From assembly GCF_014283215.1 (NCBI RefSeq), contig NZ_JACOMF010000001.1:62001-126000 (forward strand): a stretch of DNA of 64,000 bases, given 5' to 3'. This DNA is from Siccirubricoccus deserti (GTDB lineage: Bacteria; Pseudomonadota; Alphaproteobacteria; Acetobacterales; Acetobacteraceae). A program made the translations under genes and the position numbers. Positions 12,803-16,069 of this stretch are shown in pieces (position 1 is the first letter of the stretch; the number at the start of each line of letters is the position of its first letter). Under the pieces are notes generated by a model. That model did not search any database, was not told the DNA's origin, and was given only the letters and a program-made list of their open reading frames with translations.

Positions 12803-13099
12803 TTATCCGCCCGGCGGTGGGCTGCCACTCGGTCGCAGGCGGAGGAATTGCGAGCACAGCACCCCCTCATCCGTCTCAGCGGCTTCGACATCGACCCGCC
12901 GCTGGTCCTCGGCGCTCCAGTCGCACCGGCCGGAGACGCCGCCGAGGATCGCAGTGAGGAAGCGTTCGGGCTGCCGGGTCAGCAGCTGCACCACGACATG
13001 CGCGCCCATGGAATACTCGATGGTGCGGATCGCGCGACGGACCGCCTCTGTCGTGGTGGCGCTGCCGTGGAGAACCTGGCCCATAGCGCGTCCTTCCAT
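12803..13099 (-). pseudogene. Chimeric reading frame starting with an IS transposase N-terminus
   Basis: The first residues after the internal ATG at 13084 read MGQVLHGSATTTEAVRRAI. From memory this is the conserved N-terminus of a transposase family common in Acetobacteraceae (IS481-like). The similarity then stops abruptly and the frame continues with unrelated sequence (IEYSMGAHVVVQLL, key residues only) to the end at 12803. The rest is not recognised; it has FLTAILGGVSGRCDWSAEDQR. This looks like an IS scrap fused in frame to another sequence. Whether the fusion is expressed is unknown. Confidence 0.5.
13028..13084 (-). mobile_element. Insertion-sequence remnant (transposase N-terminal fragment)
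   Basis: About 57 bp encode the first 19 residues of an IS481-like transposase (see the overlapping chimeric frame). No terminal inverted repeats and no remaining transposase domain are visible. It lies about 105 bp upstream of the tmRNA gene. Confidence 0.45.
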
Positions 13100-13378
13100 G
13101 CCTGGGAGAAGACTGCACCATCAAACCCTGGGATCAAACACCTAGTCAAAATAGCCCGCCCCTCGAATTCCGTCGAGGGACGCGCTATATGGGGTCCGTC
13201 ACCTCGGTGACTATGGCGATAAACACGGCTCGGGATAAGCGTTGCGGACCCGGGGGCAGTGCCCGGCGCCTCCACCATCCCCTTCGGGGGGCCAAGGGGG
13301 CGAAACAGGCTCGACGCGCGTGGTAATGGGGTCGCTTTTGCCCGGCATGGTTCCGCCGTCATCGGGCCGATTCTAAGT

Positions 13379-13420
13379 GCGAACGATAACAGCCGCGAGG
13401 CTGTCGCACTCGCTGCCTAG
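13379..13420 (+). other. tmRNA proteolysis-tag reading frame
   Basis: From the resume codon GCG at 13379 the frame reads ANDNSREAVALAA and stops at TAG (13418-13420). With the alanine carried by tmRNA, the tag added to stalled proteins would be AANDNSREAVALAA. The AANDN start and VALAA end fit known tags: the C-terminal Ala-Ala for ClpX and the N-terminal part for SspB. Confidence 0.93.
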
Positions 13421-13439
13421 GAATAGGTAAGCGCGGTTC

Positions 13440-13467
13440 GGGGGGCACCGGGCAACAGAAGCCCCCC
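13440..13467 (+). terminator. Hairpin at the 3' end of the tmRNA gene
   Basis: GGGGGGC (13440-13446) pairs with GCCCCCC (13461-13467) around a 14-nt loop, followed by ACTTTCC. It closes the coding piece of ssrA, before sspB at 13559. It may be a terminator or a processing stem; the T-run is short. Confidence 0.55.
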
Positions 13468-13558
13468 ACTTTCCTCCGGCTTCACTTTTTGCTCACACTT
13501 TCGTGGCTCCTGCGCATGCCCTATGCATCCTTAATGCATAGGGTAGAGGGCCGTATGA

Positions 13559-14050
13559 ATGAATGAGACCGCCTCCCCCCCTGAAAGCCTGTTGCCTTAC
13601 GCGCGATGGACCGAGGAAGCGCTGCGCGCCGTGCCGCGGGATGCGCTGGCGCATGCGGCGAAGCACGGGCTGCCGGGTGAGCACCATTTCTACCTGACCT
13701 TCCGCACCGATGCCCCCGGCGTCTCGATCCCGGCGCATCTGCGCGCCCGCTACCCGCAGGAGATGACCATCGTCCTGCAGCACAAATTCTGGGACCTGTC
13801 GGTGGATGCCACGGCCGGCACCTTCTCGGTCGGGCTGTCCTTCGGCGGCGTGCCGGCGATGCTGACGGTGCCCTTCGCCGCGCTGACCGCCTTCGCCGAC
13901 CCGCATGTGCGCTTCGGCCTGCGCTTCCAGCCGCCGGATGCGCCCCCGGCCAAGGCGGAGGCCGAGCCGCCGGCGGCGGTGGATGCCGATGCCCCGCCGC
14001 CCCAGGTGGTCAGCCTCGACGCCTTCCGCCGCCGGCCCAGCCGGGAGTAG
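13559..14050 (+). CDS. sspB: ClpXP adaptor SspB (alpha type)
   Basis: The 163-aa product has the alpha-SspB core at about residues 12-125: LPYARWTEEALRAV, GLPGEHHFYLTFRTD, VSIPAHLRARYPQEMTIVLQ (key residues) and FWDLSVD. A Pro/Ala-rich linker follows, then the short C-terminal VVSLDAFRRRP, the expected ClpX-tethering tail. SspB binds the N-terminal half of the tmRNA tag and hands tagged proteins to ClpXP. Its gene starts about 90 nt downstream of ssrA on the same strand, placing tag and tag-reader together. The annotated start MNETASPPESLLPY fits family length. Confidence 0.93.
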   Translation: MNETASPPESLLPYARWTEEALRAVPRDALAHAAKHGLPGEHHFYLTFRTDAPGVSIPAHLRARYPQEMTIVLQHKFWDLSVDATAGTFSVGLSFGGVPAMLTVPFAALTAFADPHVRFGLRFQPPDAPPAKAEAEPPAAVDADAPPPQVVSLDAFRRRPSRE

Positions 14051-14055
14051 CAACG

Positions 14056-14115
14056 CCCCACGGAACCGCTGCGCGGTTTCGCGGCCGCCTGATGATGCCT
14101 CCCGGCTGGCGCTTC
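14056..14115 (+). repeat. 60-nt interspersed element, copy 1
   Basis: A 60-nt stretch starting CCCCACGGAACCGCTGCGC and ending CGGCTGGCGCTTC is matched by an equal-length copy at 55046-55105. The two agree closely at both ends and differ mainly in the middle. This copy follows the sspB stop and can form a GGAACCGC/GCGGTTTC hairpin. Confidence 0.65.
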
Positions 14116-14392
14116 ACAGGCTGCGGAAGACCGCGGGCGGGGTGCGGGAGCGCACCTCTCCCTGTCATGGCCGGACTCGACCCGTCGCTTGGCCGCCTGC
14201 CCCCCGGAGGCACGGATCAGCCCGCGCATGGTGGGGGAAGCAGGGCGGTCGGCCTTTTCCGCGACCCGCCAAGCGGCCGCGGCAGGCGGAACGCCAGACG
14301 CTGGTTGGCTTGGCCGCCCCGCTGCGGTAATCCCCGCCTGACCCGATGCGCCGCCGGCCCCTTGCCGCGGCGCCTCAGCGCGGAGACCGCCC
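14116..14392. other. Remainder of sspB-fumarase spacer
   Basis: No gene is recognised. Near 14163 it contains TGTCATGGCCGGACTCGACC, a degenerate half of the ATGGCCGGG...CCCGGCCAT palindrome seen intact at 39428-39450. A promoter for the fumarase gene is expected here but no clear one was identified. Confidence 0.4.
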
Positions 14393-16069
14393 GTGACCCC
14401 ACCGCTTGACCACGACGCCGGCCCTGTGGCCGCGCCCGCCCGCCCCGCCGGCTTCCGCTACAGCCCGATGTTCCCGCTGGCCGAGGACGCGACGCGCTGG
14501 CGGAAGCTCGACATCGAGGGCGTCTCCACCGTGGAGGTCGATGGCCGCACCGTGCTGCGGGTGAAGCCGGAGGCGCTGGAGGCGCTGGCCTTCCAGGCCT
14601 GCCGCGACGTCTCCCACCTGCTGCGCCCGGCGCATCTGCAGCAGCTGGCCAATATCCTGGCCGACCCCGAGGCCAGCGCGAACGACCGCTTCGTCGCGCT
14701 CGACCTGCTGAAGAACGCCAACATCGCCGCCGGCGGCGTGCTGCCGATGTGCCAGGACACCGGCACCGCCATCGTCTTCGGCAAGAAGGGCCAGCGCGTC
14801 TGGGTCGAGGGCGATGAGGAGGAGGCGATCAGCTACGGCATCCACCGCACCTATACCGAGACCAACCTGCGCTATTCGCAGATGGCGCCGCTGACCATGT
14901 TCGAGGAGGTGAACACCGGCAACAACCTGCCGGTCGACTTCTCCATCATGGCGGCGCCCGGCGAGCATCACGCGGATGAGTTCCACCTGATGTTCATCCT
15001 CAAGGGCGGCGGCTCGGCCAACAAGACCTTCCTCTACCAGCAGACCCGCGCGGTGCTGAACAAGCCGAAGCTGCTGGCCTTCCTGGAGGAGAAGATCAAG
15101 ACTCTCGGCACCAGCGCCTGCCCGCCCTACCACCTCGCCATCGTCATCGGCGGCACCGCGGCGGAGACCACGCTGAAGACGGTGAAGCTCGCCAGCACCA
15201 AGTGGCTGGACGAGCTGCCAGCCGAGGGCGACCGCTCCGGCCATGCCTTCCGCGACCATGCGCTGGAAGCCGAGGTGCACAGGCTGACGCAGAACCTCGG
15301 CATCGGCGCGCAGTTCGGCGGCAAGTACTTCTGCCACGACGTCCGCGTGGTGCGGCTGCCGCGGCATGGCGCCAGCCTGCCGATCGGCATCGGCGTCAGC
15401 TGCTCGGCCGACCGCCAGGTGAAGGCGAAGATCACGCCGGAGGGCATCTTCATCGAGGAGCTCGAGCACGAGCCGGCGAAATACCTGCCGGAGGCAACCG
15501 ACAGCATCCTCGGCGGCGATGTCGTGAAGATCGACCTGAACCGGCCGATGGACGAAATCCGCGCGACGCTTGCGAATTACCCGGTGAAGACGCGGGTCTC
15601 GCTGACCGGCACCATGGTGGTGGCGCGCGACATCGCCCATGCCAAGCTGCAGGAGCGGCTGGACGCCGGCCAGGGGCTGCCAGACTACATCAAGAACCAC
15701 CCGGTCTATTACGCGGGCCCGGCCAAGACCCCGGAAGGCTTCGCCACCGGCAGCTTCGGCCCGACCACGGCGGGGCGGATGGACAGCTATGTCGAGGCCT
15801 TCCAGAAGGCCGGCGGCAGCCTGGTGATGCTGGCCAAGGGCAACCGCAGCAAGGCCGTGCTGAACGCCTGCAAGGCCTACGGCGGCTTCTACCTGGGCAG
15901 CGTCGGCGGCCCGGCGGCGCGGCTGGCACAGGACTGCATCAGGAAGGTCGAGGTGCTGGAATATCCGGAACTCGGCATGGAGGCGGTGTGGCGGATCGAG
16001 GTGGAGGATTTCCCCGCCTTCATCGTGGTCGACGACAAGGGCAACGACTTCTACGACGGGCTGGAATAG
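14393..16069 (+). CDS. fumA: Class I fumarate hydratase (4Fe-4S)
   Basis: The 558-aa product matches single-chain class I fumarases, with an N-terminal (alpha-like) and C-terminal (beta-like) part fused. Cysteines expected to hold the 4Fe-4S cluster lie in [19 protein letters not shown] and GVSCSADRQ. The C-terminal part has [11 protein letters not shown] and [12 protein letters not shown]. It interconverts fumarate and malate in the TCA cycle in the cytosol and is oxygen-sensitive. The start gives [15 protein letters not shown], a slightly extended N-terminus before the conserved [10 protein letters not shown]. It is a monocistronic-looking gene. Confidence 0.95.

Follow-up and report, generated by a model that had tools for sequence, protein, structure and literature searches.

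The closest described relatives of this locus are the alpha-tmRNA of the Caulobacter crescentus type (RF01849), whose permuted gene carries the acceptor piece first, with its CCA, then a spacer and the tag-bearing coding piece, and has an acceptor stem of the G3.U70 type, and SspB-alpha, the alphaproteobacterial ClpXP adaptor, represented by the structures 2qas and 2qaz, which we take to come from Caulobacter, and 2nys, presumably from Agrobacterium. Caulobacter SspB is reportedly the subject of two papers of 2007, under the names of Lessner and Chien. The stretch of DNA analysed here (the window) comprises 64,000 nucleotides of Siccirubricoccus deserti (contig NZ_JACOMF010000001.1, positions 62,001 to 126,000 of the forward strand) and carries both elements side by side (Table 1). 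The RNA departs from the Caulobacter type in ordinary ways—a 312-base match and a tag of its own, AANDNSREAVALAA—and the protein shows no difference from SspB-alpha beyond family variation. With great confidence, the locus can be read as an ordinary alphaproteobacterial trans-translation module, i.e., a permuted ssrA with the adjacent gene of its SspB adaptor.

Table 1. Features of the ssrA-sspB region, in window coordinates
Feature	Coordinates	Strand	Basis
Promoter-like sequence: CTCGAA (13162-13167), 17 nt, CTATAT (13185-13190)	13162..13190	+	By eye
Leader hairpin GTCAC-CTCG-GTGAC, 5' of the acceptor piece	13198..13211	+	Rfam structure line and single-strand fold
Acceptor piece of tmRNA, CCA end at 13275-13277	13212..13277	+	Sequence, ARAGORN, Rfam; 5' end predicted
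Intervening spacer with CCCC-TTC-GGGG hairpin at 13279-13289	13278..13295	+	By eye from sequence
Coding piece of tmRNA	13296..13470	+	3' end is the Rfam model end (predicted)
Tag frame ANDNSREAVALAA (13379-13417) and stop TAG (13418-13420)	13379..13420	+	ARAGORN
tmRNA-sspB spacer, 88 nt, with CTCACACTTTCGTG (13492-13505) and palindrome (13519-13543)	13471..13558	+	Sequence searches, fold
sspB, 163 aa: SspB domain, Pro/Ala-rich linker, C-terminal VVSLDAF motif	13559..14050	+	PF04386, PDB matches
Class I fumarate hydratase, next gene	14393..16069	+	Profile matches

The permuted alpha-tmRNA is complete. RF01849 is matched end to end at 13159-13470 on the forward strand (model positions 1-355, with 312 bases matched against 355 model positions) at 224.9 bits and an E-value of 7.5e-64, the cut-off being 50 bits, and this is the only such match in the 6.3-Mb assembly. 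RF04321, the permuted tmRNA model, matches as well (13215-13420), and ARAGORN calls a single permuted tmRNA and no further tRNA or tmRNA in the window. The permuted two-piece ssrA that the initial annotation had proposed is therefore borne out by the covariance model, and the CCA and spacer hairpin that it described are both readable in the sequence; sequence, ARAGORN and Rfam agree in placing the CCA-bearing acceptor ahead of the coding piece. The 7-bp acceptor stem joins 13267-13273 to 13296-13302, and its third pair by eye, G13298.U13271, corresponds in position to G3.U70, the alanine identity pair. The tag opens at 13379 with the Ala resume codon GCG and ends in ALAA. By analogy with known two-piece tmRNAs, the intervening spacer is presumably removed on maturation. 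ARAGORN sets a tentative gene end at 13511, as opposed to 13470 for the Rfam model. The evidence for the tmRNA is the covariance score rather than the plain fold, as the minimum-energy structure does not clearly surpass those of shuffled sequences (z -1.31, 21 of 200 as good) under a program blind to pseudoknots.

The feature had been taken to start at 13190, a position that falls in the probable -10 box (CTATAT); counted from its probable promoter, the gene begins near 13159. Among 14 aligned relatives including the window, CTCG is found by eye in 11 and CTATAT in 9 at the promoter-like site, which falls inside the Rfam match. Since a scan for E. coli-type promoters found none, the ssrA promoter is one that we infer.

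The full peptide added is AANDNSREAVALAA, the Ala that precedes ANDNSREAVALAA being supplied by the charged tmRNA. The tag survey covers 141 of 144 genomes of the family (Acetobacteraceae) and 80 of 129 other genomes of the class, leaving out the partial family tmRNAs of G110, G052 and G082. The 141 family loci yielded 140 ARAGORN tags, 45 of them distinct, and 139 start with ANDN. The initial annotation had regarded Ser-Arg-Glu after ANDN as unusual, expecting an aromatic or acidic residue there, and had suggested an altered fit between tag and SspB. The first of these views is contradicted by the family sample, where ANDNSREAVALAA is the commonest tag (19 of 140, window included) and Ser the commonest residue after ANDN (45 of 139, followed by His with 25, Val 13, Met 12, Phe 9, Asp/Glu 8 and others); the same tag also occurs in 30 of 73 named loci with a permuted tmRNA upstream of sspB. 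Among the first 60 class loci, 53 gave tag calls and 50 of these start with ANDN, the next residue being Asp/Glu in 18/50 and Tyr/Phe in 9/50. The expected aromatic or acidic residue therefore suits other orders better than Acetobacteraceae, where the 8 Asp/Glu and 9 Phe are a minority of the 139.

Conservation of the tag frame among close relatives gives a mixed picture that does not overturn the call: two genomes filed in the window's genus have the tag ANDNDALAVAA, with frame and ANDN kept and the later residues different, so that the tail can change between close relatives. This change is what would be expected if the tag had drifted, its Ser-Arg-Glu being poorly bound by the local SspB and tag and adaptor becoming uncoupled in the lineage. 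Such drift is nevertheless highly improbable, given that the window tag is the commonest in the family, that the 45 distinct tags come from genomes all but one of which have an SspB match, and that NDN is intact in the window tag and missing in two orders without detectable SspB. An altered tag-adaptor fit is thus left unsupported and was rejected: sspB-bearing relatives differ in what follows ANDN, and the window tag is common and retains NDN.

The downstream protein matches PF04386 over residues 17-139 at 151.2 bits (cut-off 27, 3e-44) and has phmmer relatives in the PDB that include 2qas (E 5.1e-36), 2qaz (3.7e-35) and 2nys (1.4e-32); no NCBIfam match to it was found. Across the 105 family SspB proteins compared, identity to it is 44-77%, the nearest named relatives belonging to Siccirubricoccus and Belnapia (77% identity). 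The C-terminal VVSLDAF motif is likely a ClpX-docking tail. Of the SspB proteins whose reading reached a stop codon, 84 of 104 in the family and 30 of 58 in the class have the pattern [VI][VI][ST]L[DE].F; the 20 and 28 that lack it count against the module reading.

Under that reading, ssrA would be transcribed from its own promoter and the precursor split into separate acceptor and coding RNAs, which together with SmpB would rescue stalled ribosomes and add AANDNSREAVALAA; SspB would bind the N-terminal region of the tag, where NDN lies, and dock on ClpX by its C-terminal tail, with ClpX reading the LAA end. The SmpB gene is present in one copy in the assembly, on another contig.

The initial annotation had placed sspB about 90 nt downstream on the same strand; the distance is exactly 88 nt from the RNA model end at 13470 to the sspB ATG, and the arrangement recurs in relatives. 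Positions of RF01849 and PF04386 matches were compared in 150 family and 142 class genomes, with distances taken between the last position of the RNA match and the first of the Pfam match. Of the 144 family genomes whose tmRNA match exceeds the cut-off, 121 have a same-strand sspB no more than 5 kb downstream (98 within 500 nt, 23 at 0.5-5 kb), the remainder having the two on different contigs (19), far apart on the same contig (3) or no SspB found (1). The figure for the other class genomes, nearly each from another family, is 96 of 129 (84 within 500 nt, 12 at 0.5-5 kb; different contigs 21, far on the same contig 6, SspB not found 6). These counts exclude matches below the cut-off and a second copy in G244, and G000 and G040, being in the family count, were removed from that of the class; in one family pair (G148) the SspB match is a 38-bit fragment at the end of a contig. 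Among 80 named loci picked by SspB similarity, with up to 1.5 kb covered, a permuted tmRNA precedes sspB on the same strand in 73, in 66 of them within 400 nt; this sample probably overlaps in part with the previous one. Judged from these genomes, the ssrA-sspB pair is an old arrangement, widespread in the sampled class and so not local, and its retention in most sampled relatives fits a functional link. In the titles and abstract beginnings searched, outside which the key Caulobacter SspB papers lie, no mention was found of ssrA-sspB adjacency or of a joint loss of sspB and N-x-N.

Two irregular tmRNA loci were encountered in the course of the comparison. The second RF01849 match above the cut-off in G244 (contigs C15, C5) scores 72.8 bits. 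At locus L038 (about 340-520, reverse complement), the acceptor piece and the coding piece up to its middle are strongly divergent from their counterparts in the other sampled genome of the genus and the remainder agrees, the acceptor part being nearest to L037 (87% over 78 nt); the tmRNA looks chimeric, a state perhaps left behind by a genomic island that inserted at ssrA.

The pairing, in which the initial annotation had seen a hint of co-regulation or readthrough, admits several readings at the level of transcription. Spacers between the two genes are short (88 nt here; 94 family spacers span 32-345 nt with a median of 104) and the genes share a strand, the pairing is frequent in the class, and no terminator-like site was found on the forward strand in 12900-14500, so that a forward terminator 3' of the tmRNA was rejected as a candidate. 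All of this would suit a single transcription unit, in which readthrough past the tmRNA 3' end yields the sspB message and ties tag and adaptor levels to each other, a possibility that we hold tentatively and at somewhat less than even chances. Against it, 23 family and 12 class genomes have 0.5-5 kb between the two matches, and sspB may have a promoter of its own: a 14-nt block, CTCMCRCTTYCGTG (CTCACACTTTCGTG in the window), occurs with at most one mismatch in 9 of 94 family spacers (shuffles give 0.5 with up to two mismatches), a count that is not independent since the motif was derived from some of the same sequences, and by eye a CTATGC/CTATAT-like box then follows in six of the nine. Block and box may form a separate sspB promoter element, and sspB may be read from the ssrA promoter, from its own, or from both.

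The sole terminator-like site in that interval lies on the reverse strand (13182-13157), inside the promoter region, with 0.7 expected by chance. A conserved regulatory hairpin between the genes was also rejected. The palindrome just 5' of sspB, CCCTATGCAT-CCTTA-ATGCATAGGG, has perfect 10-nt arms, and the fold of 13471-13565 is somewhat more stable than those of shuffled sequences (z -2.14; 7 of 200 shuffles equal or exceed it); among 352 loci searched for exact arms, the one occurrence is that of the window, and the same-genus pair of genomes has in common only CCTATGCA of the 5' arm.

The pairing might also be a persisting neighbourhood devoid of regulatory meaning, as gene order around ssrA can persist by descent, and fumarase too follows in the same orientation in 61 of the 96 family loci whose sequence extends more than 350 nt past sspB. 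This appears unlikely: fumarase follows in just 18 of the 55 class loci that reach far enough, and the 96 class genomes with the pair come nearly all from separate families. The tmRNA and sspB are a well-formed example of a known system, and for this reason the window itself matters little.

A wider comparison concerns the part of the tag that SspB would bind. N-x-N is present in all 214 tags from sspB-bearing genomes (140 family and 74 class loci) and NDN in 206 of them; the 214 could be 213, as one locus (L210) offers two candidate frames, the shorter without N-x-N, and the longer was counted. The class loci include 20 that were selected deliberately, 16 of them because their SspB match is weak and 4 because they have none, a sampling that works against the N-x-N claim. 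SspB was found in 367 of 389 class genomes, for which at least 95% completeness was requested, and the RF01849 match is missing in 5 of the 20 sspB-less class genomes listed out of 22. Two orders are without detectable SspB (none in the 30 genomes sampled from one and none in the 10 from the other; loci L223-L233 and L242-L271). All 40 of these genomes have an RF01849 match, and N-x-N is found in none of their 40 tags, which read ANDELALAA (10), ANESYALAA (8), ANESYAIAA (3), ANDDYAELALAA (2) and others. As a control, sspB-bearing genomes of at most 1.7 Mb retain N-x-N in 18 of 18 tags, 10 of which start with ANDN, and G222 (ANDNYRRVAAAA) is a further fitting small genome beyond the 18; several of these small-genome tags are long, so N-x-N could be there by chance.

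There are exceptions. Four sspB-less genomes outside the two orders keep N-x-N: G178, a single contig, with the tag ANDNELALAA; G282, with N-x-N in a long tag and a possible assembly gap, given that the same-genus G478 has sspB; G151, which is 81% complete; and the family genome G094, with 7% contamination. SspB was not found in G266 (80% complete, tag ANNKYALAA), and G231 (locus L236) has no SspB match, a weak alpha-tmRNA match and a one-piece ARAGORN call with the tag ADDNFEYAMAA. Tag calls were not obtained for G326, which has a tmRNA match and belongs to a genus whose other genomes carry a divergent SspB, nor for G206, which has an RF01849 match below the cut-off only.

The phylogeny of the tmRNA with the tag cut out (97 rows) is weak, 11 of its 94 inner branches being starred, and it sets the two sspB-less orders apart, with weakly supported branches between them. 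A tree test of tag against sspB leaves 2 independent pairs on well-supported branches and 6 on all branches; of the 2 supported pairs, an average of 1.5 show the tag changing in the same direction and none in the opposite one, too few for significance. With four sspB-less genomes that keep N-x-N, the link between N-x-N and sspB is, on these sequences, an association from about two losses and short of proof. We slightly favour the view that, in Alphaproteobacteria, selection for SspB binding maintains N-x-N and the motif disappears from the tag once sspB has been lost, the ssrA-sspB pair marking a co-evolving tag and adaptor.

If this is true, SspB binding would be strong for AANDNSREAVALAA and AANDNDALAVAA and weak for AANESYALAA and AANDELALAA, and adaptor-less lineages would retain only the end read by ClpX, as in ANESYALAA, ANDELALAA and ANDDYAELALAA. 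The comparison points to N-x-N as the portion of the tag that goes with the adaptor and to a variable stretch that does not, and the natural tag variants of the two sspB-less orders make the co-evolution of tag and adaptor testable.
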